A DNA stretch of 27,721 nt from the NCBI GenBank assembly GCA_017530275.1, contig JAFXMP010000214.1, forward strand, positions 1 to 27,721. The letters run 5' to 3'. Of this stretch, positions 1 through 27,721 are shown piece after piece; the first letter of the stretch is position 1; each line of letters opens with the position of its first letter. Made by a program: the position numbers and the translations under genes. The notes under the pieces were generated by a model. It saw only the letters and a program-made list of their open reading frames with translations, was not told where the DNA came from and did not search any database. Source of the DNA: Clostridia bacterium (GTDB taxonomy: Bacteria; Bacillota_A; Clostridia; Christensenellales; Aristaeellaceae).

Positions 1-76
1 CGCCAAATACATGGGGTTCGCCGTCGGGAATGTATTCCCAGGAGGGCAGGTAGGGATTGAACGCCTGCTTTTTCAT
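1..76 (-). CDS. Glycoside hydrolase family 43-type protein, N-terminal fragment cut by window edge
   Basis: Only the first 25 codons are inside the window. The start is the ATG at 76-74, and the reading frame runs off base 1. The visible protein begins MKKQAFNPYLPSWEYIPDGE and continues with a PHVFG motif. This is the usual opening of GH43 arabinofuranosidase/xylosidase-type enzymes (NPxLPSWEYxPDGEPxVFG), in which the next residues normally form the first blade of the five-bladed propeller. No signal peptide is present, so a cytoplasmic enzyme acting on imported oligosaccharides is likely. The start codon overlaps the stop of the upstream carboxylesterase as ATGA, and an AAGGTGA ribosome site sits inside the esterase's last codons, so translation is probably coupled. 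The substrate (xylan or arabinan side chains) cannot be told from this fragment. Confidence 0.75.
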   Translation of the reverse strand, partial: MKKQAFNPYLPSWEYIPDGEPHVFG

Positions 77-12963: not shown

Positions 12964-13802
12964 TCGTCATTCCCTCCCAAATAGGCGTCGATGACCGCCT
13001 GATTGTTCTGAATCTGCTCGGGGGTTCCCTCGGCGATCAATTTGCCGAATTCCACCACATAGATGCGGTCCGAAATGCCCATGACCAGGTCCATGTGGTG
13101 TTCGATCACGAACACGGTGAGATTAAAATCCTTCTTGATCTGCTGAATGAATGCGCCAAGCTCCAGCGTTTCCTGTGGATTCATGCCCGCAGCCGGTTCA
13201 TCCAGCAAAAGCAAAGTAGGTTCCGTTGCCAAAGCGCGGGCGATTTCCAGACGGCGCTGCATGCCGTAGGGCAGCGAGGTGGCTTTCTCGTTCGCCACAT
13301 CCTTGAGGCCAACGATATCAAGCAGATCGGTGGCTTTGATGCGGTTGCGCATCTCTTCCTTGCCGTTCAGGTGAAACGCGGCGGTGAACACGTTGCTGGT
13401 CCTGCGCAGGTGCGTGGCGATGAGCACGTTTTCAAAGGCCGTTTGGCTCTTAAACAGGCGGATATTCTGGAAAGTGCGGGCAATGCCCAGCTTGGTGATC
13501 TTATCCGGCGTGGGCGCGATGCGCATACCGGCGAATTTATCCGCATCGTTACCCGCGTAAAGATGCTTCATTTTACCGGTGGGATGATTGGCGACGATCA
13601 GTTTATCGTGAAAATACACCGCGCCGTTGGTGGGCTGATACACGCCGGTGACGCAGTTGAAGGCCGTGGTCTTTCCCGCGCCGTTGGGGCCGATAAGCGC
13701 AACGACTTCTCCCTTGTCCACACGCATGGAAAAATCGTTGACAGCGACGACGCCGCCGAACTGCATGGTGATATGTTCCAGCCGCAGCACGTTTTCGCTC
13801 AT
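12960..13802 (-). CDS. livG: Branched-chain amino acid ABC transporter ATPase LivG
   Basis: 280 aa. Walker A is GPNGAGKTT (38-46). The long insertion after it (KMKHLYAGNDADKF...) and the GIARTFQNIRLF segment are typical of LivG. The signature is the degenerate LPYGMQRRLEIARAL (instead of LSGGQ), followed by Walker B LLLLDEPAAGMNP. The C-terminal extension VVEFGKLIAEGTPEQIQNN is normal for the family. It forms the ATPase pair with LivF. Both ends overlap neighbours by 4 nt (ATGA with livM upstream and livF downstream). Confidence 0.97.
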   Translation of the reverse strand: MSENVLRLEHITMQFGGVVAVNDFSMRVDKGEVVALIGPNGAGKTTAFNCVTGVYQPTNGAVYFHDKLIVANHPTGKMKHLYAGNDADKFAGMRIAPTPDKITKLGIARTFQNIRLFKSQTAFENVLIATHLRRTSNVFTAAFHLNGKEEMRNRIKATDLLDIVGLKDVANEKATSLPYGMQRRLEIARALATEPTLLLLDEPAAGMNPQETLELGAFIQQIKKDFNLTVFVIEHHMDLVMGISDRIYVVEFGKLIAEGTPEQIQNNQAVIDAYLGGNDE

Positions 13803-14905
13803 TGCTTCTTCCCCCCTTCGGCTTTATTATTCGCGCCTATGTCCCATAGCTCCCTTTCCCCCATGATGCCCCGGCGGAAGAACAGCACAACGATCATGAT
13901 GATTACGGAGAAAACCACCAGACGGAATCCATTGCGCAGGAGAGGCACTTCAAAATTGCCGATCATCTGCTTTTCATCCAGGAACCTGAGCCACCATTCG
14001 GAGCAGGCCACGAACAGGAAGGAGGAAAGCACGCTGCCGGTCACGCTGCCCACGCCGCCGATGACCACGATGAGCAGGATCTCATAGGTCATGGCCGAGG
14101 TAAAGCTCTTGGCCTGCACGGTGGTCTGGTACATGGCCAGCATGGCCCCGCCCACTCCGGCAAAGAAGGAAGAAATGCAGAAAGCCAGCTGCTTGTGATG
14201 CGCCAGATTAATGCCCATGGCCTCAGCCGCCACCTCATCGTCCCGGATGGCCTTGAAGGCCCGGCCGTAATTGGAGCGGATCAGCATCACGATCAGGAGA
14301 ATACACACCCCCGCGATGATGAAGGGAATCAGGGTGGAAAGGTACACGACCACGTTCCCGTCCGCGTCCTTAATGTTGAAATCGTTGAAGCTGGGGAACA
14401 GACGCAGCATGTTGGAGCCGTTGGTCAGGGGGCCTAAGTTGTTCCACTGGAAGATGGCCCGGATGATCTCGGCAAAGCCCAGGGTGGCGATGGCTAAATA
14501 GTCGCTTTTCAGCCGCAGCACGGGCAGGCCGATCAGGAAGGCGAAGAACGCCGCCGCCAGGCCCGACAGGATCATGGCGATGACCACGGGCACGGTAAAC
14601 TGCACAAGGCCGCCGTTAAAATACTGGTACACCTGTGCGCGCACTTCCAGCGGGATGGTAAAAATGCCGTACACGTAAGCGCCGATGAGCATGAAGCCCG
14701 CCTGACCCAGGGAGAAGATGCCCGTAAAGCCGTTGAGCAGATTCATGGACACGGCCACCAGCGCGTAGGTAGCGCCTTTTTTCAGCACCGTGAACAGCAT
14801 GGAGGAGGGCGGCAAAATCTGCTCCGCGATAAACACCGCCGCGTAAATCAGCGCGACCACCACCCAGGTCACAATGAAGGGGCGCTTGGATTGCTCTTTG
14901 TTCAT
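13799..14905 (-). CDS. livM: Branched-chain amino acid ABC transporter permease LivM
   Basis: 368 aa from the ATG at 14905, which has GAGGTG 6 nt upstream; an in-frame GTG at 14914 is an alternative. A polytopic membrane protein with the LivM landmarks NLLNGFTGIFSLGQAGFMLIGAY near the N-terminus, RLKSDYLAIATLGFAEI in the middle, and the ATPase-contact loop GRAFKAIRDDEVAAEAMGI, followed by FAGVGGAMLAMYQ and EILLIVVIGGVGSVTGS. It forms the translocation channel with LivH. Its stop overlaps the livG start; livH ends about 10 nt upstream. Confidence 0.96.
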   Translation of the reverse strand: MNKEQSKRPFIVTWVVVALIYAAVFIAEQILPPSSMLFTVLKKGATYALVAVSMNLLNGFTGIFSLGQAGFMLIGAYVYGIFTIPLEVRAQVYQYFNGGLVQFTVPVVIAMILSGLAAAFFAFLIGLPVLRLKSDYLAIATLGFAEIIRAIFQWNNLGPLTNGSNMLRLFPSFNDFNIKDADGNVVVYLSTLIPFIIAGVCILLIVMLIRSNYGRAFKAIRDDEVAAEAMGINLAHHKQLAFCISSFFAGVGGAMLAMYQTTVQAKSFTSAMTYEILLIVVIGGVGSVTGSVLSSFLFVACSEWWLRFLDEKQMIGNFEVPLLRNGFRLVVFSVIIMIVVLFFRRGIMGERELWDIGANNKAEGGKKQ

Positions 14906-14915
14906 TCTGCTCACC

Positions 14916-15839
14916 TCACACCTTATCCGTGGCCGCTTCGCCGAAAAGGCCCGTCGGCTTGACCACCAGAATCACGATCAGCAGCGCGAACGTAAACGCG
15001 TCGGAGAAGGTGGCAAGGCCCAGGGGCTTTTCGATGATGCCGGATTTGAACAGGATCACGTCCAGGCCCTTGATGATGTTCTCCATGATGCCGATAATGA
15101 ACGCGCCAATCACCGCCCCGGGAATGGACCCGATACCGCCGAATACCGCCGCCACGAACGCTTTCAGGCCCGGCATAGCGCCGGAGGTCTGAATCACGGT
15201 GGAATAATTGGTGAAATACAGCACGCTGCCCACGCCTGCCAGGAAGGAACCGATGACGAACGTGGCGGAAATCACGTTATTGATCTTGATGCCCATGAGC
15301 TGGCTGGTTTCAAAATCCTTGCTGACCGCGCGCATGGCCATGCCGATTTTGGTTTTGTTGATCAGCGTCACGAGGGCTGCCACCAAGGCAATCACCAGGA
15401 TGGGGGTAATGACCGTGACCAGCTTGGTTTTCGCCGCGCCCAGCACGATGGTTTCGGAAATCCAGGGAATGGTGGGATACTGCTTATTCAGGCCGCCTGT
15501 GATATACAGCACCAGATTTTGCAGCGTGTAGCTGACGCCGATAGCGGAAATCATCACGCTCATGCGCGGCGCGGAGCGCAGGGGCTTATAAGCGACGCGC
15601 TCGATCAGAAAGCCCACCAGCGCCGTCACGATCAGCACCAGCGGAATGGACAGCCACAGCGGCACACCCGCCGCCACAATGTACACCATCAAGATGCCCG
15701 CCACCATGAACACATCGCCGTGGGCGAAGTTGATCAGGCGCAGGATGCCGTACACCATGGTGTATCCAATGGCGATCAGCGCGTACTGCCCGCCTACGGA
15801 TATACCGGAAAGCAGGTAGGGGAAAACAGTATCCCACAC
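14916..15839 (-). CDS. livH: Branched-chain amino acid ABC transporter permease LivH
   Basis: 307 aa from a GTG start at 15839 (MWDTVFPYLLSGISVGG), which has AAGGGAG about 10 nt upstream. The frame stays open to a TTG at 15887, but that would begin inside the preceding hairpin. LivH landmarks are GGQYALIAIGYTMVYGILRLINFAHGD at the N-terminus and the loop KTKIGMAMRAVSKDFETSQLMGI that contacts the ATPases. The C-terminal part has AAVFGGIGSIPGAVIGA. It is the second membrane subunit of the Liv transporter. The 166-nt gap to livJ holds two hairpins that could lower its expression relative to the binding protein. Confidence 0.95.
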   Translation of the reverse strand: MWDTVFPYLLSGISVGGQYALIAIGYTMVYGILRLINFAHGDVFMVAGILMVYIVAAGVPLWLSIPLVLIVTALVGFLIERVAYKPLRSAPRMSVMISAIGVSYTLQNLVLYITGGLNKQYPTIPWISETIVLGAAKTKLVTVITPILVIALVAALVTLINKTKIGMAMRAVSKDFETSQLMGIKINNVISATFVIGSFLAGVGSVLYFTNYSTVIQTSGAMPGLKAFVAAVFGGIGSIPGAVIGAFIIGIMENIIKGLDVILFKSGIIEKPLGLATFSDAFTFALLIVILVVKPTGLFGEAATDKV

Positions 15840-15870
15840 GGTCGGAGCACTCCCTTTCGTATTAACAATG

Positions 15871-15902
15871 AAAAGCGGCGGAGGCAAGCGAGCCCCCGCC
15901 GC
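15871..15902 (-). terminator. Attenuator-like hairpin just upstream of livH
   Basis: GCGGCGG (15875-15881) pairs with 15896-15902. On the minus-strand RNA the stem extends through one G-U pair and GGC/GCC (15883-15885 with 15892-15894) to a UCGCUU loop, then UUUU follows. It looks like a partial terminator between livJ and livH. Confidence 0.65.
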
Positions 15903-15942
15903 AACTTGACCGAGTTATTTCTATAGCTTTCTCGGAAGGGGG

Positions 15943-15989
15943 TCTGGGCAAAACCGCTCTTTGGTTACCAAAGAGCGGTTTCCCCCAGA
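15943..15989. repeat. Long palindromic hairpin downstream of livJ
   Basis: A perfect 15-bp inverted repeat around one central base (15951-15965 with 15967-15981, AAACCGCTCTTTGGT). It is extended outward by TCTGGG/CCCAGA (15943-15948 with 15984-15989). It lies 16 nt after the livJ stop in the direction of transcription. It may protect livJ mRNA or terminate part of the transcription. Confidence 0.7.
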
Positions 15990-16005
15990 AAATTCTCATA
16001 AATCA

Positions 16006-17163
16006 TTAGTCAACCGTCTGCTCAGAAACGAACACCCATTCGCCGGTGGCGTTGTCAATGGCCTTGACGAAAGCGGAGGTGCGGATGGCGTCGCCGTTTC
16101 CATCAAAGGCAATGTGGCCGGATACGCCGTCGATTTCCACGGAGGGCAGAATGGCCATCACAGCGGCGGAATCAATGGTACCGGCGGCCTGCAGCGCGGC
16201 CAGGGCCATATAATAGCCGTCATATCCCATTACGGACACGGCCGCGATCATATCGTTGCCGCCGTTGTTGGTCAGGGCTTCCGCGTCGCTGTTCAGCCAG
16301 GCCTTGAAGCCAGCGTCGAATTCAGCGTTCGCGCCTTCCTGATAGAAGGTGGTGATAATGACTTTCACACTGGTGCCCTTGGCGGCTTCCGCAACCACGT
16401 TGCTGTCCAGGGTATCGCCGCCCAGCACGGGAATTTCCATGCCCTGTCCTGCGGCCTGGGAAATGATCTGGGTGGAGTAGGCGATGGACACGGGGCAGAA
16501 GAACACGTCCGCGCTGTACATGGCGGCGTTGGTCAGGTAGGAAGTAAAGTCAGAGTTGCCAGTGGGGAAGTCTTCCTTGATCACGGTGCCGCCCAGGGCT
16601 TCAAAGGCCTGTTTGAAGTAGGTGATCAGGCCCTGGTCATAGTCGTTGCCCAATTCGCCCAGGCAGTACGCGGTGGTGGCGCCAAGAGCCTTGGAAGCGT
16701 AGTTGGCCAGAACGGTGCCCTGGAAGGGATCCAGGAAGCAAACGCGGAAATAGTGGGTGTTGCCGGCGGTGACCTGGGGATTGGTGCAGGTCAGGCCGAT
16801 AGCGGGGATCTTGGCGTCGGCAAAATACTGGGAACCGGCAATGGACACGCCGGAGCCGTAGGAGCCCAGCACCACGCTTACGTTTTCAGAAACCAGCTTC
16901 TGGGCGGCGGAGGGCGCCTTATCGGTGGAGGAGCCGTTGTCCGCGGTGACCAGTTCCACTTTGTATTCGACGCCGCCGATGGTGACGGTGGGAGTTACCA
17001 CGTTGGCGTACTGCACGCCCAGGGTTTCCTGCTTGCCGCCCGCGCCGGAGTCGCCGGAAGCGGGTTCATACACGCCGATCTTTACCACGGGCATATCGTC
17101 CGCCAAAGCGAAAGCGGGCGCCATCAGCGCCAGGACCATGATCAAAGCCAGAATCTTCTTCAT
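16006..17163 (-). CDS. livJ: Branched-chain amino acid ABC transporter substrate-binding protein
   Basis: A 385-aa periplasmic-binding-protein type I fold, first gene of the liv operon. The signal peptide (MKKILALIMVLALMAPAFALA) has a signal peptidase I style end and no cysteine, so there is no lipobox. The mature part starts VVKIGVYEPASGDSGAGGKQ, followed by the LivJ-type VVLGSYGSGVSIAGSQYFADAKIPAIGLTCTNPQV and YDQGLITYFKQAFEALGGTVIKEDF. It captures Leu/Ile/Val or similar ligands outside the membrane and delivers them to LivHM. GGAG lies 9 nt upstream of the ATG, with a near-consensus promoter before it. The ligand is inferred from the family only. Confidence 0.95.
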   Translation of the reverse strand: MKKILALIMVLALMAPAFALADDMPVVKIGVYEPASGDSGAGGKQETLGVQYANVVTPTVTIGGVEYKVELVTADNGSSTDKAPSAAQKLVSENVSVVLGSYGSGVSIAGSQYFADAKIPAIGLTCTNPQVTAGNTHYFRVCFLDPFQGTVLANYASKALGATTAYCLGELGNDYDQGLITYFKQAFEALGGTVIKEDFPTGNSDFTSYLTNAAMYSADVFFCPVSIAYSTQIISQAAGQGMEIPVLGGDTLDSNVVAEAAKGTSVKVIITTFYQEGANAEFDAGFKAWLNSDAEALTNNGGNDMIAAVSVMGYDGYYMALAALQAAGTIDSAAVMAILPSVEIDGVSGHIAFDGNGDAIRTSAFVKAIDNATGEWVFVSEQTVD

Positions 17164-17278: not shown

Positions 17279-18178
17279 TTAAATAAGCCCCTTGGCCATC
17301 ATCGCCGCGCCGCGGGCCGGGGAATACCGCGGCGAAATCAGGCGCACATCCGGCAGTTCCGCGTGAATGCATGCTTCCGTCATGGCTCGGATGGGGGCGT
17401 ACCTGTTCAGAATGCTGCCTGTCATGGCCGCTTCGCCGTCCCGCATACCAGTTTTCCGCCAGCCAGTAATCACCAGTTCCGCAAGATCGTTCGCGGCTTT
17501 CCGGGCAATCTCCCCGGCAGCCTCGTCCCCCGCTTCCAGGGCGGGAAGCAGCAGGGGGGCCATGGCGGCGATTTCCTTTTTCCCGGTGCCGGGAGCGTAC
17601 AACCAGGTGATCACGCCGCTGATGTCCTTTGTGCCTAAGAAATCAAACGTCTTTTGTTTCAGGCATGTATCCTTTCCCCTGCCGTCCTCCGCCCGGACCG
17701 CAGCCATGAGGATATCCCGGCCGATGGCGTAGCCGCTGCCCCCGTCGTCGATCAGGTAGCCCCAGCCTCCGACCCGGAAGCTGTTCCCGGCAAGATCACG
17801 GCCATAGCAAATAGCTCCCGTCCCGGCGATGAGCACGGCTCCGTGGCCCCGGATCGCTCCGGCCAGGGCAATTTCCTGATCGCCCACCAAACGCAATCGG
17901 CCCGCGTATCCGGCGCTGCGTACCGCCTGCGCAACCATTTCAGCGGCGTCCCGGTTGCTGACTCCTGCCATACCAATGACCAGCATGGCGCACTCTTCAA
18001 GCCCCCCGGGCTGGCTGCTCATATAGGCGACTGCGTCCCGTACGGTTTTTTCCACCTTTTCCCGGGACACGCCGTTCACATTCAGGGGGCCGAAGGACTG
18101 CGACGCCGTTTCGCCGCTTTCCTTCAAAACGCACACCTCGGTTTTGGTGCCGCCTCCGTCCCAGCCGCAGCAATACAT
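17279..18178 (-). CDS. BadF/BadG-type ATPase, probable N-acetylglucosamine (or MurNAc) kinase
   Basis: 299 aa from the ATG at 18178 (AAAGGAAG 7-8 nt upstream; a TTG 18 nt farther upstream is in frame but lacks a site). It is an ASKHA-fold sugar kinase of the BadF/BadG/BcrA family. The phosphate-1 motif is WDGGGTKTEV (6-15). LVGDQEIALAGA holds the probable catalytic Asp, and the phosphate-2 motif IAGTGAICYG is followed by GGWGYLIDDGGSGYAIGRD. These match GlcNAc kinases of the NAGK/MurK group. It lacks the Fe-S cysteines of benzoyl-CoA reductase subunits, so a sugar kinase is much more likely. It sits 66 nt downstream of a UgpC-type ATPase on the same strand, fitting uptake and phosphorylation of amino sugars. 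The substrate is inference. Confidence 0.85.
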   Translation of the reverse strand: MYCCGWDGGGTKTEVCVLKESGETASQSFGPLNVNGVSREKVEKTVRDAVAYMSSQPGGLEECAMLVIGMAGVSNRDAAEMVAQAVRSAGYAGRLRLVGDQEIALAGAIRGHGAVLIAGTGAICYGRDLAGNSFRVGGWGYLIDDGGSGYAIGRDILMAAVRAEDGRGKDTCLKQKTFDFLGTKDISGVITWLYAPGTGKKEIAAMAPLLLPALEAGDEAAGEIARKAANDLAELVITGWRKTGMRDGEAAMTGSILNRYAPIRAMTEACIHAELPDVRLISPRYSPARGAAMMAKGLI

Positions 18179-18202
18179 AAAAACGCTTCCTTTCAAGAAA
18201 AT

Positions 18203-18244: not shown

Positions 18245-19324
18245 TTATTCCTTGATTACTTTTTCCGTTTCCCCATCGAATAGATACACGTTTTCATAAG
18301 GGATGGAGAAGGTGATATCCTTGTCGGCTTCGGGGGTGTCGTGGCTGTCCACCTTGAGGATGGCCTGATCATTGCCCGCGTTGACGTATACGTTGGTATT
18401 GTCGCCCAGCATTTCGGTCAGTTCCACATTGCACGTAACCACATAGGCGTTTTCCTTGCTGCCCAGCTGGATATGCTCGGGCCGGAAGCCGAACACGATT
18501 GCTTTGCCTTCATATCTGCCGATATCCGGCAGCTTTTTGCTCAGATCCAGCTTCCTGTCGCCAAAGCTGATCGCGCCGTTTTCCACCTTCCCTCGCAGGA
18601 AGTTCATGGGCGGCTCGCCGATGAAGCCCGCCACGAATACATTTTCCGGCTCAAAATAGAGTTGATAGGGCGTGCCGGTCTGCTGCACGTAGCCGTCCTT
18701 CATCACCACGATGCGGTCCGCTAAGGTCATGGCCTCGGTCTGGTCGTGGGTCACATAAATGGTGGTGGCTCCGGTTTCCCGGTGGATCTGCGCGATTTCA
18801 TAGCGCATGGTCACGCGCTGCTTGGCGTCTAAGTTGGAAAGGGGCTCGTCCATGAGGAATACGCCCACTTTTCGGATGATAGCCCGGCCAATGGCCACGC
18901 GCTGGCGCTGTCCGCCGGACAGGGCCCGAGGCAGCCGGTCCAGATAATCCGTAAGGCCCAATATGCGGGCGATATTGTTGACCCTCTGCTCGATGATATC
19001 CTCGTCTACCCCCTGGAGAGTGAGGCCGAAAGCGATATTATCAAATACCGTCATCTGGGGGTACAGGGCATAGCTCTGGAACACCATGGCGATTTCCCGT
19101 TCCCTGGGACCCATTTCGTTGGCCCGCTTGCCGTTGATCAAAAAATCGCCATTGGAAATGTCCTCCAGGCCTGCGATCATGCGCAGGGTAGTGGATTTTC
19201 CGCAGCCGGAGGGACCGACGAAAACAACAAACTCCCCCTTTTCAATTTCCAAATTGAAATTGTGCACGGCATGGAAGCCGTTGGGGTAAATTTTGTTGAT
19301 GTTTTTCAGCGTCAGGTACGCCAT
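18245..19324 (-). CDS. ugpC: UgpC/MsmK-type sugar ABC transporter ATPase, stand-alone
   Basis: A 359-aa ABC ATPase with a C-terminal OB/TOBE domain, normal for the MalK/UgpC/MsmX group. Walker A is GPSGCGKS (37-44), the signature LSGGQRQRVAIGRA starts at 135, Walker B is VFLMDE (155-160), and the switch His193 lies in YVTHDQTEA. The C-terminal domain (about 235-359) contains GFRPEHI, the regulatory-domain motif. No permease or binding-protein gene is adjacent, so it may serve several sugar transporters as MsmX/MsmK does. TAAGGAGG precedes the ATG. It diverges from an AraC-family regulator and is followed by a sugar kinase. A palindrome GAACGTTC (19341-19348) lies 17 nt upstream of its start. 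Confidence 0.94.
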   Translation of the reverse strand: MAYLTLKNINKIYPNGFHAVHNFNLEIEKGEFVVFVGPSGCGKSTTLRMIAGLEDISNGDFLINGKRANEMGPREREIAMVFQSYALYPQMTVFDNIAFGLTLQGVDEDIIEQRVNNIARILGLTDYLDRLPRALSGGQRQRVAIGRAIIRKVGVFLMDEPLSNLDAKQRVTMRYEIAQIHRETGATTIYVTHDQTEAMTLADRIVVMKDGYVQQTGTPYQLYFEPENVFVAGFIGEPPMNFLRGKVENGAISFGDRKLDLSKKLPDIGRYEGKAIVFGFRPEHIQLGSKENAYVVTCNVELTEMLGDNTNVYVNAGNDQAILKVDSHDTPEADKDITFSIPYENVYLFDGETEKVIKE

Positions 19325-19382: not shown

Positions 19383-19417
19383 TACAGATAAATTCTACCT
19401 CATAGGGGGAGTATGCC

Positions 19418-20170
19418 ATGAATGACATCGTTTACGCGGCGCAGCTGACAGCGGTTCACGGGAGTCAGCCGCTGCTTCACGAGCAATGGGAACTCATTTT
19501 CTGCCTGTCCGGCAGTGGAGAATACGCCATCGGCGGCCAGCGGCTGGCTCTCGCCAAGGGCGATATGGCAGCCGTTCCGCCCCAAACGTCCCACTTCTGT
19601 ACAGCCGACAGGGGCTTCAAATCCATCCAATTGCTCGTGGACAAGCCCACCTTGTTGATCAAGGACGCCTGCCTGGTGCACGGCGATGGCAGCCCCCACC
19701 TGCAGGCCGCTTTTGAAGGAGCGCTGTATCATTACGGTTCCGAGCTTCCCGGGAAAATCCATCTGCTCGCCGCTTACGGGAGCCTGATCGTCTGTTATCT
19801 GGCGGTAGGCAAGACAGGACGAACCTTGCCTCCCGTAATATCGGAAATCGAAGGAGATATCCGCAGCCGGTTTTCCGACCCAGCCTTCGAGCTGGAAGCG
19901 TATCTGCGCTCCCTGCCCTTCAACTACGATTACCTGCGCAAATTGTTTCAGCGGGAAATGGGCGTAACGCCCCTGCAGTACCTGAACAGCCTGCGGCTGC
20001 GCACCGCGGCGGAAGCCTTGCTCAGCATGGAAGGGACGGCTGGCAGCGTAACGGAAATCGCTCGCATGTGCGGCTTCCGGGAACCCCTGTACTTTTCCCG
20101 AATGTTCAAAAAGAAGTACGGCCTTTCCCCCACCCTTTACGCCGCGGCCGGAAAGCGGCCTTACCCCTGA
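19418..20170 (+). CDS. AraC family transcriptional regulator
   Basis: 250 aa. The N-terminal part (about 10-90) looks like a cupin-type sensor barrel (HEQWELIFCLSGSGEYAIGGQRLALAKGDMAAVPP). The C-terminal part (about 150-245) has the paired helix-turn-helix of AraC/XylS: LRKLFQREMGVTPLQYLNSLRL for the first and VTEIARMCGFREPLYFSRMFKKKYGLSP for the second. GGGGGAG precedes the ATG. It lies between a divergent ugpC-type gene and a convergent GH105 gene, whose end it overlaps by 10 nt. It probably responds to a sugar and controls the ugpC/kinase pair or the rhamnogalacturonan operon; which one is not visible. Confidence 0.93.
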   Translation: MNDIVYAAQLTAVHGSQPLLHEQWELIFCLSGSGEYAIGGQRLALAKGDMAAVPPQTSHFCTADRGFKSIQLLVDKPTLLIKDACLVHGDGSPHLQAAFEGALYHYGSELPGKIHLLAAYGSLIVCYLAVGKTGRTLPPVISEIEGDIRSRFSDPAFELEAYLRSLPFNYDYLRKLFQREMGVTPLQYLNSLRLRTAAEALLSMEGTAGSVTEIARMCGFREPLYFSRMFKKKYGLSPTLYAAAGKRPYP

Positions 20171-20640
20171 TTCGGAAGAAGCAGGATTTCCGTATAGCAC
20201 ATCAGGAAGGGTGCCACGCCCTTAGCGTCGTTCTTCACCACGGGCTCGGAAATATAATAGGCGTAGGTGCCGTCCCGGCGGCGGTTGTCTTCCGGCCCCA
20301 GTCCGGCCACCAGGCAAATATTGCTTAAGCACAGCTGGCCGTCGGAAAATTCCAGGCAAGTGTCCACAATCCCGTCGAAGGTTTTCTTGCCCAGCGCCGC
20401 GTACTTGCCGTCCAACACTCCCAGCCGGGCCCCTTTCAGCATGGCGTAAGCGATCATGGAACTTCCGCTGCTCTCCTGATAATTGCCTTCCCGGCCCCCC
20501 TGATCCATCACCTGGTAATACATACCCGTGTCTGGCGCGGCGAAAGGGGCTGCATCAGCCATGAGTTGGGCGAAAATGCCCGCTATGCTGTCCCGCTGGC
20601 TGCCCAAAGGCAGTATCTCCACCAGGTCTGCCAGCGCCAC
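20161..20640 (-). pseudogene. GH105 unsaturated rhamnogalacturonyl hydrolase, C-terminal part after a frameshift
   Basis: A 159-aa continuation of the GH105 enzyme whose N-terminal part lies just upstream in another frame. It opens ALADLVEILP, which in GH105 enzymes follows directly after the RAIGWF-type motif at the end of the N-terminal fragment. It contains the usual YYQVMDQGGREGNYQESSGS segment and ends ...VAPFLMCYTEIL, both typical of YteR/YesR-like (alpha/alpha)6 barrels. A GTG at 20640 could restart translation, but without a good ribosome site. Its last 10 nt overlap the convergent AraC gene. Alone it cannot be an active enzyme; together the two parts make about 379 aa, the normal length. 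Confidence 0.85.
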
Positions 20641-21299
20641 GGAAAACCACCTATGGCCCGCAGCCAGAAATTGCCGCTCAAGCCAGTTTCCTTGTCACAC
20701 CAGAAGGCGGTTTTGCTGGCGTCGTACCCATGGAAATAGAGACCGGTCTTTCCGTCCCGCATGCGGGCATGCACGGTTTCCACCTGGCGCGCGATATCGG
20801 AATAATCCCCCGTACCAAATTGTTTTTCGTACAGGGCGGCGAAGGGCTGGGCCATGTAAACGCCGTCAAGCCACACCTGATGCGGGTAAATCTGCTTATG
20901 CCAGAAACTGCCCTCCCAGGTGCGGGGCTGCTCATCCAACTGATTTCTCAAAAAATCAGCGGCCTTCCGGTACTTTTCCTTGCCTGTTTTCTCATACAGC
21001 TCGAATAGTACCCGACCCTCGTTGATATCGTCCAGGCTATGGGCGTCAACCTTATAATCGCGGATGGAACCGTCCTCCAGCACGAAGTAATCGATAAAGC
21101 TCTCCACAAAGGTGAAATACCGGCTGTCTCCGGTGATCCGCGCCATGGAAAGCAGGGCAGTGACCATACACCCGTCGATATAGTTCCAGCACGCGGGCAG
21201 ACCGGCCCGCAGTCTTTCCACATTCCACACTGTGCGCTTTGGGGAGGATTGTTCGATCAGGCTCACCACATAGCGGTCAATATCTTGATATCGTCCCAT
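20583..21299 (-). pseudogene. GH105 unsaturated rhamnogalacturonyl hydrolase, N-terminal part before a frameshift
   Basis: A 238-aa frame with true GH105 similarity up to about residue 217. Visible motifs are WNYIDGCM (38-45), HSLDDINEGRVLFELY (87-102), PHQVWLDGVYM (139-149, with the catalytic Asp145 equivalent to Asp143 of B. subtilis YteR), LYFHGYD (187-193) and SGNFWLRAIG (208-217). After ATA-GG at 20650 the frame departs from the family and the last about 20 residues (GFPWRWQTWWRYCLWA) are spurious. One missing base between 20650 and 20649 would restore RAIG-WFSVALADLVEILP. Active GH105 removes the unsaturated uronate from oligosaccharides made by rhamnogalacturonan lyases, in the cytoplasm. 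It is the last gene of the sugar transport operon, 23 nt after the preceding membrane protein. Confidence 0.85.
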
Positions 21300-21322: not shown

Positions 21323-21985
21323 TTATGATGCGCGGGCACTGTTTTTCGCGTCCGCGAAGATTCGTTTGAATAAACGCTTCATACCGATGAACAGCATATC
21401 CCATCCCATGGCGAAAAGGCCGAACAGGATCGGGCCCACCCCCAAGGGCGCTGCTTCCGACCTATGGGTCAGCGCGACGGTCACGGTATTGACCGCATTG
21501 TAGGTCTGCGCCACGCAGAACACCACCGCAAAGGCGTACAGCACATTCAGAGGCAGGGATACGAATTTTTTCGGAGGAATCATCATCCACCGGTCGTTGG
21601 CTTTTTCCGGCTTGGCAATGAAGCGGAAAATGTTGTTGGTAATGATGTCCGTGACAAACCCCAGAGCAACGGCGGTGATCGCCAGCAGATCCAATGGATC
21701 GGCTACATACATGCCTAAGCCCCAGATGAAGAAGTAGCACACGATCCCGGCCATCCACGCCTTGATGAGCACGGCCTTGACCCAGCTCGCCATTTTGATG
21801 CCGGCGGCGGCGGATTGGTATTTCCGCAGTTCCTGCCTGCTGACGGGCGGAGAGTTTTCTTCGGTGGCGTTCACCAGATCATCCACGGCTTTGACATTCA
21901 GCTTATAATATTCCGCCGCGGATTTTTCCTTTTCCTGGGCGGGCTCCCGCTTTTTCTCCGGAAAAGGCCGCTTTTTACTCGCCAT
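21323..21985 (-). CDS. Unknown four-helix membrane protein P4 of the sugar transport operon
   Basis: 220 aa, not recognised. A charged, probably cytoplasmic N-terminus of about 65 residues (MASKKRPFPEKKREP..., helical stretch EYYKLNVKAVDDLVNAT) is followed by four predicted membrane segments at about 74-94, 99-121, 143-163 and 183-201. The loop between helices 2 and 3 is basic (KPEKANDRWMMIPPKK), so both ends should be inside. The loop between helices 3 and 4 reads TVTVALTHRSEAAPLG, close to ITVALTREESPISPTG in the neighbouring P3. AAGGA lies 6 nt before the ATG; the gap after P3 is 9 nt. The context suggests a role linked to the ABC transporter or its ATPase. It does not resemble DUF624/YesL. 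Confidence 0.75.
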   Translation of the reverse strand: MASKKRPFPEKKREPAQEKEKSAAEYYKLNVKAVDDLVNATEENSPPVSRQELRKYQSAAAGIKMASWVKAVLIKAWMAGIVCYFFIWGLGMYVADPLDLLAITAVALGFVTDIITNNIFRFIAKPEKANDRWMMIPPKKFVSLPLNVLYAFAVVFCVAQTYNAVNTVTVALTHRSEAAPLGVGPILFGLFAMGWDMLFIGMKRLFKRIFADAKNSARAS

Positions 21986-21994
21986 ACGTTTTCC

Positions 21995-22558
21995 TTAAGC
22001 GTCTTCGCCGCTAATATCGATGGCGGCCATATCGCTATTGCCGGCTACGTCCACATTCGTGTTGATCTTCCGGATTAAGGGAGCGTACACAGGCAGAAGC
22101 GCCAGCAGGGCCGTGCCGATGATGACCAACACCATGTGCACCTGTATCACGCCTTGAGCCACGGATACAAAGGCATTCTTCCCCGTGGGGCTGATGGGGC
22201 TTTCTTCCCGGGTGAGGGCCACCGTGATGCGGCTGCCATAGTAATAATCACAGTAAATCAGGACGCCGATCATCAGAAACGTGAGCACCAGCATGGGCAC
22301 GTTGGTTTTTTTGCGGTGGGGAAACGAATTGAGGAAAGTTACCAGCGCCAGGGCTGAAAACAGCATGGTTGAAAACTCCGCCAGCCCCATATGGGGGCCG
22401 TTGATGAGGGCGGTGGTATTGGCGATCTGGCTCAGGTTCAGGGAGTAATACACATAGGCGGCCACCAGCACCAGCATGGCGATGAGCTGCGGCTTTCGTT
22501 TCAGAGCGACCAAACGCTTTCGGTAAAATTCCCTGAAAACGGAAGGATTCTTCGTCAT
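21995..22558 (-). CDS. Unknown four-helix membrane protein P3 of the sugar transport operon
   Basis: 187 aa, not recognised. A basic N-terminus (FREFYRKRLVALKRKP) is followed by membrane segments at about 24-41, 60-78, 88-106 and 133-157. The loop between helices 2 and 3 is short and basic (PHRKKTN), which places N- and C-termini in the cytoplasm. The outer loop between helices 3 and 4 carries ITVALTREESP, shared in altered form with P4. The helix 2-loop pattern SALALVTFLNSFPHRKK resembles SCALFMTNTHSRRKYY of P1. It starts 3 nt after the ATPase stop, with the ribosome site (GGAGG) inside the last ATPase codons, so coupling to the ATPase is likely. Confidence 0.75.
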   Translation of the reverse strand: MTKNPSVFREFYRKRLVALKRKPQLIAMLVLVAAYVYYSLNLSQIANTTALINGPHMGLAEFSTMLFSALALVTFLNSFPHRKKTNVPMLVLTFLMIGVLIYCDYYYGSRITVALTREESPISPTGKNAFVSVAQGVIQVHMVLVIIGTALLALLPVYAPLIRKINTNVDVAGNSDMAAIDISGEDA

Positions 22559-22561
22559 CGT

Positions 22562-23635
22562 TTATCGCGCCTCCTTTCGGATCGCATTGGTGGTTTCTTT
22601 GTCAAAAAAGTGCATTTTGCCAAAGCGAAGGGCCACTTGTTCGCCATTGCGGTAGGACATCCAGCCCCGCAGCTTGGCCGTAATGCGGCAATTATCGCCC
22701 ATATAGCCCTGCACCAGGGTATTCATGCCCAGGTTTTCATTGGTGCTTACCTTCACCAAAACGCCTTGGCCCTGAGAAATATCCTCCGGCCGGACGCCTA
22801 AGATGATGGTTTTGCGGTCATAGGGCCGAAGCAGGTCCTTCTGTTCTTCCGTCAGTTCCGCTTCAAAGCCCTTGCCCTTGAGCTTACCATTCTCAAAAAT
22901 CACTTCAAACATATTCATGGGCGGCAGCCCGATAAAGCTGGCGACAAATGTGTTATTGGGCGCATCGTACAGTTCCAGGGGGGTGCCCACCTGCTGCACA
23001 TGGCCCATAGACATACACACGATGCGGTCGGCCAAGGTAAGGGCTTCCGTCTGGTCGTGGGTCACGTACAGGATCGTCGCCTGCAGGCGCTTATGCAGGA
23101 GCAAAATCTCCCGCCGGGTGGAAGAACGCAGTTTGGCGTCTAAGTTTGACAGGGGTTCGTCAAACAGGAACACCTTGGGGTTGCGCACGATGGCGCGTCC
23201 CATGGCCACGCGCTGCCTTTGTCCGCCGGAAAGCTGGGCGGGCTTTTTGTTCAGTTGGGCCGTCAGATCCAAAATCTCCGCGGCGGCCAGCACCTTTTTA
23301 TGGATCACGTTGGGGTTTTCCTTGCGCAGGGTCAGGGAAAACGCCATGTTTTCGTAAATGGTCATGTGGCCATAGAGGGCATAGTTCTGAAACACCATGG
23401 CCATGTCCCGATCCTTGGCGGGAGCACGGGTAATATCCTTGCCGTCCAGCATCAGCGTGCCCCGGGAAATATCCTCCAATCCAGCCACCATGCGCAGGGT
23501 GGTGGACTTGCCGCAGCCGGAGGGGCCAACCAGCACGATCAGCTCCCCGTCTTTCACGTCCAGATTGAAGTCGTACACAGCCTGAACGTTGTTATCATAG
23601 ATTTTATCCAGATGCCGCAGTTGTAGCTCAGCCAT
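22562..23635 (-). CDS. ugpC: UgpC/MsmX-type sugar ABC transporter ATPase, operon-encoded
   Basis: 357 aa. Walker A is GPSGCGKS (37-44), the signature LSGGQRQRVAMGRA starts at 135, Walker B is VFLFDE (155-160), and the switch His lies in YVTHDQTEA. The C-terminal TOBE/OB domain contains GVRPEDI and is of normal length. The Q-loop region reads YALYGHMTIYENM where the family usually has YALYPHMT, so Pro89 is replaced by Gly at the surface that contacts the permease. It is clearly homologous to the ATPase at 18245-19324, but the two differ throughout. It is flanked on both sides by unknown four-helix proteins, which is unusual: LplABC-type importers generally borrow an ATPase encoded elsewhere. 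GGAGGA precedes the ATG. Confidence 0.94.
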   Translation of the reverse strand: MAELQLRHLDKIYDNNVQAVYDFNLDVKDGELIVLVGPSGCGKSTTLRMVAGLEDISRGTLMLDGKDITRAPAKDRDMAMVFQNYALYGHMTIYENMAFSLTLRKENPNVIHKKVLAAAEILDLTAQLNKKPAQLSGGQRQRVAMGRAIVRNPKVFLFDEPLSNLDAKLRSSTRREILLLHKRLQATILYVTHDQTEALTLADRIVCMSMGHVQQVGTPLELYDAPNNTFVASFIGLPPMNMFEVIFENGKLKGKGFEAELTEEQKDLLRPYDRKTIILGVRPEDISQGQGVLVKVSTNENLGMNTLVQGYMGDNCRITAKLRGWMSYRNGEQVALRFGKMHFFDKETTNAIRKEAR

Positions 23636-23647
23636 GTATTCTCCTCC

Positions 23648-24115
23648 TTACGCCTGTAAAGAAGCGGTGTATTTTGCCAGCGCCTGGCTCTTTTTCAGAT
23701 TGACGGCCGCGCCGGCAAAAAGGCAAACGGCGGATGCCACCAGGTAAATCACGACCCGGATAAACTGTCCGTCCCCCATGACGGCAGCGCCGCTTACCAT
23801 GGTGCGGTGCGCGTCTGCGGGCAGGATAAAAATACGGATGATCTGGACGATCCCCAGGCCAATCATGACCCAGGAATAAACGGTCTTGTAGTTTTTCACG
23901 CCCTCCGAGCACAGGAACGTGATCAGGAGGAAAACGAGGTTATAAATGATGGACGCGCCGATGAGGATGGTGTAATAATACGTGCCCACATCGGATTTAT
24001 AGATACTGATGAAGAAAAGGACGTCAAACACGATAGCCAGCAGGGCAAGCCTGGAAGAGGCTGTATTCTTTGTATAACGCATACGGTCAATCTGCGTTGT
24101 GCGATCGTCTGTCAT
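23648..24115 (-). CDS. Unknown four-helix membrane protein P2 of the sugar transport operon
   Basis: 155 aa from the ATG at 24115, which overlaps the P1 stop as ATGA and has AAAGGCGG 7 nt upstream. Not recognised. A hydrophilic N-terminus of about 20 residues (MTDDRTTQIDRMRYTKN) is followed by membrane segments at about 21-40, 48-70, 79-99 and 118-138. The short loop between helices 2 and 3 (SEGVKNYK) is basic, and the tail (KKSQALAKY) is basic, giving both termini inside. The outer loop between helices 3 and 4 (PADAHRTMVSGAAVMGDGQ) is small. No catalytic or metal-binding motif is visible. It ends 12 nt before the ATPase start. Confidence 0.75.
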   Translation of the reverse strand: MTDDRTTQIDRMRYTKNTASSRLALLAIVFDVLFFISIYKSDVGTYYYTILIGASIIYNLVFLLITFLCSEGVKNYKTVYSWVMIGLGIVQIIRIFILPADAHRTMVSGAAVMGDGQFIRVVIYLVASAVCLFAGAAVNLKKSQALAKYTASLQA

Positions 24116-24705
24116 GCTGATACCGCCTTTCCGGAGGAACGGAGCAGTTTCTGTTCTTCCCGCATCATTTTCTTCTTCCAGAAATAATTCACGATCAGAA
24201 GCACGGCGGCAAGGATTGCCACGCCGCACACGAGATAATGGATGTCGAACCAGAAAGTGGAATCGGTGTAGGTCCCGCGGCGGGACAAGCGCTTTTCAAG
24301 CTCCGCGAAGTCCACCGTGGTTAAATACTGGGTCTTGAAAGCGCTCACCTCAAGGTGGCACCAAATTGCCATGGCGCATTCCGCCGCGACGTTTACGGCG
24401 GTGGCAACGGTATTGCCGATATAGTATTTGCGCCTGGAATGAGTGTTGGTCATAAACAGCGCACAGGACAAAAGGATCATCCCAATGGAACCCCTGAGCA
24501 GCGTGCGGTTGAAGGGCTGCATATCGTAATAGATTCTGGCGCCCTCCACCTTGGCTGAATCCAAATTGTTGGGATTCGGAATCATGGAATAAAGCGTGTC
24601 GAACAGATCCGTCAGCAGCCCCAGCGAATAAACGAACACCAGCGCTCCGGCCACCAGGGAAATGAAACACACGATCCTTTGGAAGACAACCTGTTTCTTA
24701 TACAT
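24112..24705 (-). CDS. Unknown four-helix membrane protein P1 of the sugar transport operon
   Basis: 197 aa, not recognised. Membrane segments lie at about 10-32, 71-88, 97-119 and 154-176. A 38-residue outer loop follows helix 1 (DTLYSMIPNPNNLDSAKVEG...) and a second outer loop of about 35 residues (LTTVDFAELEKRLSRRGTYTD) follows helix 3. The helix 2-3 loop THSRRKYY and the tail KKKMMREEQK are basic, so both ends are predicted inside. The signal is not cleavable. It is the first of the four small membrane genes and starts 112 nt after the binding-protein gene, across two hairpins. Its stop overlaps the P2 start (ATGA), suggesting that P1 and P2 act together. Confidence 0.75.
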   Translation of the reverse strand: MYKKQVVFQRIVCFISLVAGALVFVYSLGLLTDLFDTLYSMIPNPNNLDSAKVEGARIYYDMQPFNRTLLRGSIGMILLSCALFMTNTHSRRKYYIGNTVATAVNVAAECAMAIWCHLEVSAFKTQYLTTVDFAELEKRLSRRGTYTDSTFWFDIHYLVCGVAILAAVLLIVNYFWKKKMMREEQKLLRSSGKAVSA

Positions 24706-24817: not shown

Positions 24818-26884
24818 TTATTCGATGGTGCCTTCGTAGTATTCCAACAGACGGGCCCAGGCGTCGTTCTTCAGTTCGGTGTATTCATAGCCGAACCAAT
24901 CGTTTTCAGCCTTGGCAGCCTGTTCCTCGGCGGTCATGCCGTCGGGAATGCCGTTCACCACGATTTCGTCAAAGAGGTTGAAGTTGTTGCTGAACTGCGC
25001 CAGCAGATCGCTCAGGGCGTTCAGGTCATCGGTCTCGGTGGTGTAGTGGGGCAGGGTGGTGGGAACGGAGGTATACCAGCCGTTCTCAGTAATGGCCAGC
25101 TCGGGATGCTTGATGGTGCCCAGGCCGATGGCGGCGGAAATCTTGGCGGCGCCTTCCTTGCCTACATCATGGGTGCACTGATACTCGAAGGCCTGGCTCT
25201 TGATGAAGGTCAGGGTGGAGCCCAGGTAGCGGCGGGCAAAGTTGGTGTAGTTGCCGGAGGCCAGATCCCACAGGTTCTGCCGGGTACCGTCGGCAATCAC
25301 GGGCATCTGCTTGCCATTGAAGATGAAGGTCTCGTAGGAGCCGTCCGCATTGGTGTTGATGAAGGCGTCGGGGCCGTAGCTCATGAGGATCTGGCCCTTT
25401 TCGGAGTACGCATAGTTGATCAGTGCCAGCAGGGCGTCCAGCTTGGCTTCGTCGCCAGCCACGCCGGCCTTGGAGATGGCCCAGGCGTTGCCGGGCTTCA
25501 CAGAACGCCAGGATTCGGTAAAGCGCATGTACACGCCTTCTTCATTGGTGCCGTCAAACCAGCGGGACACGGGCACCATGATGGCCATGTACTTTTCGCC
25601 TTCCTGCAGCTTGGAGTTCAGGATAGTCTGGGTCTGATTGTAGTCGTAGGACATGAAGCCCAGGTCGTCGGGCAGGTAGTTCTTGGTGGAGCTGGTTTCG
25701 GCCTTGGTCATGAAGTCGGCGGAAATCAGGCCTTCCAGCGCCATATCGTGCATCTTGGCGGCGGCTTCGTAAGCGATGGCAGTCTGACGGCCATCCACCA
25801 GTTCGCCGTCGGTGTTCACATACAGATAATCCTGGCGGGATTCGTAACCGCGCACGCCGAAGAGCGGGCCGCCCAGGCGGTACACGTCAGGCCTGCGGGC
25901 CATGGAATTTTCTTCACGGGAGAACAGGCCCTGGATAGAATCGGTGCCGTTCAGGCTCTGGGGATTGGCCACCACGCAGCGCAGCAGGGCCACCATTTCA
26001 TCGGCGTCCCAGCAGGCGTCATAGCCCGCGAACAGGTTGGAACGGGTCGCGCCATAGTAGCCGTCATAGGTCTTGTCAATATATTCGCGCAGCATATTGA
26101 CAGCTTCCACGCCGCTCATGACGCCCTTTTCGTTCATCTTTTCCACGATGTTGCCATAAGCGTCATAGTTCTTGGTGAGGGTGATCACGGCGGTGCCGTC
26201 GGCATTGGGGGTTTCAATGGCGATGGAGCCGCTGGTGGGCATGAAGGGCTGGTACACGGGGGCTTGGGTATCCTTGCAGGCTTCGGCGGTGAATTCGCCT
26301 TCGCCGTCCAGGAGCTTCTGCAGGTAGTCCACACGCATCAAGGGCATCTTTTCGATGTCGTTCACACCGTCAAAGTAGGGAGCGAAGTAGAACGCGCCGG
26401 TGTCGGTGTTGGCGGTGATGGACAGCCGCACGATGGGGTTTTCGTCGAAATACTTGATCACGTTGGGGATCTTGTCGGCGTATTCAGCCAGGTTCACCAG
26501 GCTGCCGATTTCGCCGTATGCGTTGATGGTCGCGGACGGGCCGAGCACCATGTCCACTTTGTCCAGCTGCTCTTTCCAATAGTCGAATTCTTTGGAATCG
26601 CTGTTGCCCTGGTAGAAAGAGCCGTCGATGATAATGTTGTTGCCGGTCAGCTCGCTCAGCACTTTTTCCATTTCAACCCAGGTGGGCTTCAGGTCGCCGG
26701 TATGGTAGGTGATGCCGTCGGCCAGGGTGATGCCCTCGCCAGCGATATCAGCGCTGAAAGCAAGGCCGGTATTGGCGTTGTTGTAGCCAACGGCCATGCG
26801 CAGGGTGACGTCTTCCGCGCTGGCCACCGCCAATACGGACAGAGCCATCATGCATACCAGGAAAAGAGACAGGATACGTTTCAT
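24818..26884 (-). CDS. Sugar ABC transporter solute-binding protein (LplA/YtcQ-like, family 1)
   Basis: 688 aa, larger than the 500-560 aa usual for LplA/YtcQ proteins. The signal peptide MKRILSLFLVCMMALSVLAV ends SA-ED; the only Cys (residue 11) is not in a lipobox, so the protein should be cleaved by signal peptidase I. Features typical of large extracellular solute-binding proteins are LKPTWVEMEKVLSELTGNNI near the N-terminus, a lobe with many aromatic residues, NAWAISKAG, and LLALINYAYSEKGQILMSYG in the second lobe. It is expected to bind an oligosaccharide and hand it to the LplB/LplC-type permease. The GH105 gene at the end of the operon suggests unsaturated rhamnogalacturonan oligosaccharides, but the ligand is inference. 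GGAGGA precedes the ATG; the permease ends about 20 nt upstream. Confidence 0.9.
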   Translation of the reverse strand: MKRILSLFLVCMMALSVLAVASAEDVTLRMAVGYNNANTGLAFSADIAGEGITLADGITYHTGDLKPTWVEMEKVLSELTGNNIIIDGSFYQGNSDSKEFDYWKEQLDKVDMVLGPSATINAYGEIGSLVNLAEYADKIPNVIKYFDENPIVRLSITANTDTGAFYFAPYFDGVNDIEKMPLMRVDYLQKLLDGEGEFTAEACKDTQAPVYQPFMPTSGSIAIETPNADGTAVITLTKNYDAYGNIVEKMNEKGVMSGVEAVNMLREYIDKTYDGYYGATRSNLFAGYDACWDADEMVALLRCVVANPQSLNGTDSIQGLFSREENSMARRPDVYRLGGPLFGVRGYESRQDYLYVNTDGELVDGRQTAIAYEAAAKMHDMALEGLISADFMTKAETSSTKNYLPDDLGFMSYDYNQTQTILNSKLQEGEKYMAIMVPVSRWFDGTNEEGVYMRFTESWRSVKPGNAWAISKAGVAGDEAKLDALLALINYAYSEKGQILMSYGPDAFINTNADGSYETFIFNGKQMPVIADGTRQNLWDLASGNYTNFARRYLGSTLTFIKSQAFEYQCTHDVGKEGAAKISAAIGLGTIKHPELAITENGWYTSVPTTLPHYTTETDDLNALSDLLAQFSNNFNLFDEIVVNGIPDGMTAEEQAAKAENDWFGYEYTELKNDAWARLLEYYEGTIE

Positions 26885-26904: not shown

Positions 26905-27721
26905 TTATTCCTTCACACCGCCGGCGTTGGCACCTTTGGCGAAGTACTTCTGAATGAAAGGGTAAATGATCAGGATGGGGATGATGGAACAGACGATCAG
27001 GGCGAAAATGATGGAATCAGGCGCGTAAGGCGCGGTCCAGCCGCCCAACTGCTCCAGGTCGGTATACTGTTCCAGCTGGTTGCGGATAAATACCTGCAGG
27101 GGCTGTTCGTTGGTATTTGAAATCATCTGCCGGGCCCAGAAGTAGCCGTTCCAGCGGCTGATGGCGAAGAACAGGGCCACGGTGGCGATGGTAGATTTGC
27201 TCATGGGGATGAACACCTTGGAAAGCACCTGCATTTCCGTGGCGCCATCCACGATGGCGGCTTCCTCGATCTCGCTGGGCACGTTTTCAAAGGCGTTTCG
27301 CAGGAGGATGATGTTCATGGCCGCCATGCCCATGGCGATGACCACCAGCCATTTATCGTCCATGATGCCCACCGAGTTGAACACCGATTTTGTGGCCAGG
27401 TAATTCAGGTACTGGGGCACGATACCGGCGGAGAACCACATGGTGAACACGAGGAAGAAATTGAAGGTTTTCCGGAACAAAAGCCGCTTTTTGCTCAGCG
27501 CGTAGCCGCCTAAAATGCTCACGCCCAGAGACCAGATGGTGCCGTAAATGGTCAGGAACAGGGTGTTGGAGTAGGCGTTCCAGAACTGGTTGTTGCCAAA
27601 CATGGCGGCGAAGGCTTCAAACTGGATGTCCTTGGGGAAAACGATCAGTTCCTGATACTCCACCGCGTGCCGGCCGCTGATGGAAGCGGACACGGCGTAC
27701 AGGAAGGGATACAGGCACAGC
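26905..27721 (-). CDS. Sugar ABC transporter permease (LplC/YtcP-like), N-terminus beyond window edge
   Basis: The frame is open to the right edge, where it reads LCLYPFLYAVSASISG, the usual family start region, so the true start lies outside. Inside the window are about 272 residues with five or so membrane segments. The conserved cytoplasmic EAA loop is EIEEAAIVDGATEMQVLSKV, followed by FIPMSKSTIATVALFFAISRWNGYFWA, typical of the MalG/LplC group. With a partner permease (probably just outside) it forms the channel for the solute-binding protein encoded next. ATP would come from a UgpC/MsmX-type ATPase, most simply the one in the same operon. Confidence 0.92.
   Translation of the reverse strand, partial: LCLYPFLYAVSASISGRHAVEYQELIVFPKDIQFEAFAAMFGNNQFWNAYSNTLFLTIYGTIWSLGVSILGGYALSKKRLLFRKTFNFFLVFTMWFSAGIVPQYLNYLATKSVFNSVGIMDDKWLVVIAMGMAAMNIILLRNAFENVPSEIEEAAIVDGATEMQVLSKVFIPMSKSTIATVALFFAISRWNGYFWARQMISNTNEQPLQVFIRNQLEQYTDLEQLGGWTAPYAPDSIIFALIVCSIIPILIIYPFIQKYFAKGANAGGVKE

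Follow-up and report, generated by a model that had tools for sequence, protein, structure and literature searches.

Four membrane protein genes conserved alongside an alginate-type ABC importer in Clostridia and Spirochaetales

Type I sugar importers of the ATP-binding cassette (ABC) family, with examples in Bacillus subtilis, consist of a solute-binding protein (SBP), two permeases and two ATPases (PMC11466899). In Sphingomonas sp. A1, the importer AlgQ1/AlgQ2 - AlgM1-AlgM2 - AlgS-AlgS (PDB code 4tqu) takes up alginate as a polymer, which cytosolic lyases then cut (PMC7055323). Streptobacillus moniliformis possesses an AlgQMS-type glycosaminoglycan importer, Smon0123/Smon0121-0122/Smon0120, which feeds a cytosolic unsaturated glucuronyl hydrolase and is described, in the excerpts of PMC5717064 used here, as made up solely of an SBP, a permease pair and a pair of ATPases. 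The B. subtilis importers YtcQP-YteP and YesOPQ are tied to galacturonan and rhamnogalacturonan use and are most probably energised by the shared ATPase MsmX (PMC5730181). Here we describe a locus in a 27,721-nucleotide stretch of DNA from a Clostridia bacterium (assembly GCA_017530275.1, contig JAFXMP010000214.1, positions 1 to 27,721; hereafter the window) in which permease, SBP and ATPase genes of the same kind as those of the Sphingomonas system are accompanied by four genes for small membrane proteins, P1 to P4.

We consider it likely that the gene series permA-permB-SBP-P1-P2-ATPase1-P3-P4 (hereafter the module) encodes one alginate-type type I ABC importer for uronic-acid oligosaccharides with four dedicated integral subunits. 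The case for a single machine is built on the identity of the genes, their fixed order and shared distribution, an ATPase lineage almost exclusive to the module, a natural P1-P2 fusion and, in the loci tested, adjoining genes for uronate enzymes. Judged from sequence, the core of this importer is of a known kind, and for the four membrane proteins none of the libraries searched gave a convincing match. Such a module was not described in the part of the search results covered for open-licence PMC text, and the excerpts of PMC5730181 on the B. subtilis importers do not mention proteins of the P1-P4 kind.

An alginate-type importer core and four additional genes

All genes of the module present in the window lie on the minus strand. 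The permease B gene (MalG/AlgM2 side; 26905-27693) matches PF00528 with 50.9 bits, and its reading frame stays open up to the end of the window, its relatives being mostly 296 aa long; permease A is expected beyond the window, the order permA, permB, then SBP being that seen in relatives. These are followed by the large SBP (24818-26884, 688 aa), P1 (24112-24705, 197 aa), P2 (23648-24115, 155 aa; its start is an ATG within a longer GTG frame, giving a 4-nt overlap with P1), ATPase 1 (22562-23635), P3 (21995-22558, 187 aa) and P4 (21323-21985, 220 aa). The initial annotation had placed the P1 to P4 open reading frames (ORFs) at these positions on either side of the ATPase, with spacings of -4, 12, 3 and 9 nt, and both positions and spacings are correct. 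It had also called the ATPase UgpC-type, a label that holds with a score of 435.5 bits against a subfamily cut-off of 432.

The core displays clear similarity to the alginate importer. The permA of one relative (L081) matches AlgM1 with an E-value of 4.3e-58, and a profile of 13 SBPs matches AlgQ1 and AlgQ2 (1.1e-39 to 3.9e-36); the window SBP is AlgQ1/AlgQ2-like by profile match, and as a single sequence it returned no match from Pfam or NCBIfam. The closest match of ATPase 1, which is of the MalK/MsmX/AlgS type, is MsmX, with AlgS among the next (1.9e-94 for AlgS); PF00005 and PF17912 score above their cut-offs and TOBE_2 below. With EAA-motif permeases, an exported SBP and a MalK-type ATPase carrying an OB domain, the core is that of a type I (CUT1/AlgQMS-type) importer, and the composition exceeds the usual set of an SBP, paired permeases and paired ATPases by four further membrane genes. 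The initial annotation had likened the locus to the LplABC/YtcQP importers; the relation is looser than proposed, and among solved structures AlgM1 and AlgQ1/Q2 are the closest relatives. Unlike the Sphingomonas importer, the module has the four extra membrane proteins, an SBP of 677-1002 aa where uncut (vs ~500 for AlgQ), and hosts that are gut bacteria known chiefly through metagenomics, represented here by Clostridia and Spirochaetales metagenome-assembled genomes (MAGs).

Export of the SBP is suggested by a signal-like N-terminus in 71 of 75 SBPs in a crude hydropathy test. The window SBP has such an N-terminus and no lipobox Cys, as do many close relatives; for a host with one membrane only, an SBP lacking a lipobox would be unusual. 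A crude lipobox pattern is found in 24/75 SBPs, distant members included, and P1-P4 are present there too. Anchoring of the SBP is therefore not the general reason for P1-P4, and we dismissed it as such, within the limits of a crude pattern.

Conserved gene order and a nearly private ATPase

Scanning genomes with the P3 alignment yielded 86 loci; the 80 retained are in genomes labelled Clostridia, Clostridiales, Christensenellaceae, Lachnospiraceae, Oscillospiraceae, Oribacterium and Spirochaetales. Further loci were obtained by a P1 search of 297 genomes of one order, which gave 17 positive genomes, some of them very distant. All 14 stretches taken from P1-positive genomes hold permA-permB-SBP-P1-P2-ATPase-P3-P4, and six more, including three in which P1 matches only very weakly, follow this order for as long as the contig lasts. 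Overall, P1-P2-ATPase-P3-P4 is complete and ordered in 86 of 101 loci (window included, and counting L073, where P1 and P2 are fused). Fourteen of the 15 incomplete loci run into a contig edge; in the other, L097, P3 was missed by the profile and is recognisable by position only, as a 164-aa frame with four hydrophobic segments in its slot. The order is still kept in the most divergent loci, where P1 scores only 30-52 bits, and L095 belongs to this remote end, with P3 detected at an E-value of 0.008 only. The genes for permA, permB and SBP are present in 59/81 loci, the remaining 22 being cut upstream, as well as in all 14 loci of the P1 search and in L095-L097. Not every locus is independent: three pairs among the 80 share an identical P3, and L029, L030 and L032 belong to a single assembly. 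Between relatives, the genes around the ATPase thus do not vary freely, and this conserved order supports, as the best reading, the proposal in the initial annotation that P1-P4 are accessory membrane subunits of the importer.

The four genes also occur together. P1 and P3 are found in the same 17 of the 297 genomes (E<=1e-5), and P2 and P4 in those 17 plus one more, G103, in which P1 appears at 1.9e-7 with a wider profile and P3 very weakly, at 0.008. A single P1 copy is present in 23/24 locus genomes, in 55 of the 56 positives among 200 family members, and in 16/17 positives among 119 genomes of the family of a spirochaete locus, where the positives include a fragment at the end of a contig and a copy with an internal stop. 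The exception among the locus genomes, G007, is a 1.6-Mb assembly with three module loci (L029, L030 and L032), two of them with P1, and represents either mixed strains or true paralogues. In a phylum-wide survey the only positive genome of 398 was the centre genome itself; beyond its own groups the module is therefore rare. Searches for mobile copies returned no P3 relative in viral contigs and no P1 relative in plasmid or phage records. The idea that P1-P4 are unrelated membrane genes held nearby by operon inertia, for which only their lack of a known function speaks, is barely credible beside a fixed order over Clostridia and Spirochaetales MAGs down to barely detectable similarity, joint occurrence and a copy number that is nearly always one.

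We examined how the P genes relate to the other importers of their hosts in 13 genomes. These contain 119 AlgM1-like permeases at E<=1e-15, and in each genome the best one is that of the module (45-100% identity to the query; others <=40%), although the gap is small in the three most distant genomes; the P genes therefore go with one importer among many. The same genomes contain at least 128 UgpC-like ATPases at E<=1e-60, ATPase 1 included, with 3-21 listed per genome. In the tree of ATPases the best split unites 88 of 91 ATPase 1 sequences with one ATPase of a truncated locus, at a support of 1.0. The motifs of ATPase 1 are intact in the window and across relatives (Walker A and signature in 91/91, Walker B in 88/91, H-loop in 90/91).

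The nesting of ATPase 1 among the P genes, its largely separate lineage and the number of UgpC-like ATPases that the permeases could borrow are what one would expect if P1-P4 and ATPase 1 formed a separate ABC-type machine, with permA-permB-SBP using ATPase 2 or another MsmX-like ATPase. We regard this as decidedly improbable. ATPase 1 is nearest to MsmX and near AlgS, a type that pairs with EAA-motif permeases, and the EAA coupling motif is found in 44/44 permA and 58/59 permB (selected on length among the first 81 loci), and P2, P3 and P4 all lack it; two of 25 P1 fit a loose pattern, located in an outer loop. In the loci found, the two permeases and the SBP are moreover present wherever the contig reaches. 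ATPase 2 (18245-19324, minus strand), a second MalK-type ATPase 48% identical to ATPase 1, lies downstream in many close relatives but was not found downstream of P4 in most of the distant loci L083-L091 and L095-L097, which rules it out as a fixed part of the module.

Families, topology and conservation of P1-P4

P1-P4 of the window returned nothing above cut-off from Pfam or NCBIfam, all Pfam matches (SpoIIIAC, PhoLip_ATPase_C, EI24 and others) falling below it. Among 24-25 relatives of each P family, no Pfam family at E<=0.01 was common to more than three members: matches are scattered over 1-3 members each (CD20, Acyl_transf_3 and others), the lowest E-value being 6.3e-6 for CD20 in 2/25 P1. 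Ten distant relatives likewise gave nothing above cut-off in NCBIfam. When known structures were searched by sequence, P1 and P2 had no match at E<=1, the top match of P3 was a designed helical bundle (2.7e-5) followed by two weak ones, and P4 matched one receptor at an E-value of 0.8. The initial annotation had called for a check against known unrelated families, and across the curated libraries P1-P4 came through it with no convincing match. Homologues are numerous in a set of 5.8 billion proteins (E<=0.01; P1 at least 2768, P3 at least 422), and at least 469 relatives are listed for P4; the best 120 listed for P1 and for P3 are mostly unnamed, the rest hypothetical or oddly labelled. PF00115 is precomputed on one of the best 120 listed P1 homologues, and a few listed P1, P3 and P4 homologues bear source names such as phosphoethanolamine transferase, DltB and DUF1097, all of which we take to be probable chance labels on helical proteins.

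YesL/DUF624 (PF04854), a family linked to the yes operon, resembles P1-P4 in being a small polytopic membrane protein near sugar importers. The profiles do not match: hhalign gave a probability of 0.3-3.6% against P1-P4 (control 100%), and PF04854 appeared neither among the matches of the window's P1-P4 at E<=1 nor among those of the relatives at E<=0.01. DUF624 genes are found elsewhere in 7/8 module genomes.

Profile comparison, made with both narrow and wide alignments, gave no homology among P1-P4 or between them and the permeases (with the wide alignments <=3.2% probability, against 91% for the permA-permB control), and by this measure they appear to be four unrelated families. The pairs P1/P2 and P3/P4 proposed in the initial annotation are thus alike in arrangement, whereas no homology between partners was found by profile comparison. 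P1 and P2 probably do form a pair, as one locus encodes them as a natural fusion of 354 aa (L073, 7827-8891, plus strand), and P3 and P4 probably form another, by position. Two P3 relatives have unusual lengths: protein P0077 (323 aa) comprises two P3-like units in tandem, and L083 has a 345-aa frame (6533-7570, minus strand), much above the usual length.

Hydropathy averaged over homologues displays four membrane segments in each protein (P1 n=70, P2 n=71, P3 n=81, P4 n=80), and the AlphaFold models of P1 (predicted local distance difference test, pLDDT, 89.1; predicted template modelling score, pTM, 0.82) and P3 (pLDDT 84.5, pTM 0.73) have four long helices, as the initial annotation had it. 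The fraction of Lys and Arg in wide alignments is 0.20-0.26 in inside segments and 0.03-0.07 in outside ones, with borders placed by hand. This charge distribution bears out the basic loop between helices 2 and 3 noticed earlier and suggests that both termini are inside, including a long cytosolic N-tail in P4. With dN/dS values of 0.07-0.31 against six relatives, P1-P4 are real proteins under purifying selection. Outside loops are the least conserved part in all four, and cytosolic parts the most conserved in P1 and P3.

Conserved basic cytosolic motifs, tails conserved in many P3 and P4, and a window SBP without a lipobox could also suit proteins that lie outside the translocation path and act only as regulators or anchors, holding or switching the ATPase, docking the SBP or tethering cytosolic enzymes. 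We find this unlikely, though the foremost of the alternatives: the SBPs with the lipobox pattern still accompany P1-P4, the weak conservation of the outside loops speaks against SBP docking, and the P3 and P4 tails vary across the family.

Downstream genes, substrate and proposed role

The genes behind P4 point to uronic acids. They encode glycoside hydrolases (GH) of families GH88 (window and L087), GH28 (L042 and L087) and GH4 (L061 and L063), as well as KduI together with a short-chain dehydrogenase (L085). Heparinase II/III-like and DUF4962-like proteins occur in L095-L097 (the DUF4962-like one in L096 being below cut-off), and L095 also has a cupin, a short-chain dehydrogenase and an IclR regulator. 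Counted by length, 32 downstream genes are of 505-535 aa and 71 of 370-395 aa, and only 1/32 and 2/71 of these have a signal-like N-terminus by the crude hydropathy test used for the SBPs; cutting therefore seems to be intracellular. The substrate is most likely uronic-acid oligosaccharides, and because of GH28 pectin fits best, so that pectin fragments are the favoured candidate on these gene contents. A uronic-acid substrate, here deduced, and cytosolic depolymerising enzymes would be shared with the Sphingomonas system (PMC7055323).

In the window, the GH88-type uronyl hydrolase gene (20161-21299, minus strand) is open in two overlapping frames, 20583-21299 (238 aa) and 20161-20640 (159 aa), with PF07470 in both pieces, and is therefore frameshifted or broken, or misread in this sequence; its counterparts in relatives are single frames of ~376 aa in the same place or nearby, with PF07470 confirmed in L087. 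An AraC-type regulator gene (19418-20170, plus strand) lies between ATPase 2 and GH88, and an ORF antisense to it (19400-20200, minus strand) was dropped. Further away are a BadF/BadG-type ATPase (17279-18196) beside genes of a branched-chain amino acid type ABC importer (12244-17163, minus strand), a TraX-family membrane protein (PF05857; 8581-9447, minus strand) and, at the far end, a GH10 enzyme (1812-3011, plus strand) and a carboxylesterase (73-1605, minus strand).

The best reading of the genetics remains that P1-P4 are subunits of the importer. In such a complex the P1/P2 and P3/P4 pairs would pack beside the permease dimer, and their basic cytosolic loops would touch permease and ATPase. 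These contacts could keep the private ATPase in place and could stabilise, or gate, a widened passage for long anionic chains, which cytosolic GH28 or lyase and GH88 enzymes would then cut. Support falls from membership of the complex to the P1/P2 and P3/P4 pairing, then to the basic-loop contact and finally to the role in passing long anionic chains.

A bolder version, which we think doubtful, has P1-P4 as stoichiometric subunits that enclose an AlgM1-AlgM2-type permease and make a wide gated conduit for polymer-length pectin, the chain being cut inside the cell by endo-acting cytosolic polygalacturonases and lyases. The membrane part would then comprise six different proteins and ~28 helices if each subunit occurs once, assuming six helices for each permease, and in Clostridia and spirochaetes the whole would parallel the alginate 'superchannel' of Sphingomonas, but without a pit.

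Several observations weigh against assigning P1-P4 to the importer in this way. The linkage between them is all genetic, and in the excerpts of PMC5717064 and PMC7055323 used here, importers that share this type of permease, SBP and ATPase are presented with no P1-P4-like proteins. As P3 or P1 served to locate the loci, importers of this kind lacking both would be missed, except in the survey of permeases in 13 genomes. The three most distant ATPase 1 sequences fall outside the ATPase 1 clade, and the P1-P2 fusion is one MAG locus. P2 and P4 conserve their membrane helices more than their cytosolic parts, and the cytosolic N-tail is missing from the most distant P4, so it cannot be the essential contact. 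As for the substrate, three of ten neighbour proteins checked, further out or in other loci, are unrelated to uronates (PALP and MatE in L008, an LRR protein in L098) and one is unmatched; in some loci, such as L062, L065, L073 and L075, P4 is not directly followed by a gene of GH28 or GH88 size; and GH28 and GH88 were confirmed by Pfam in two loci each, so the sets counted by length may include others.

If P1-P4 are indeed dedicated subunits, this conserved addition of four proteins would show that type I importers can be rebuilt into a larger complex, and the relatives of P1, P3 and P4, families now without a function, would gain one. For rumen bacteria, the module may be a route to take up long pectin-type chains.

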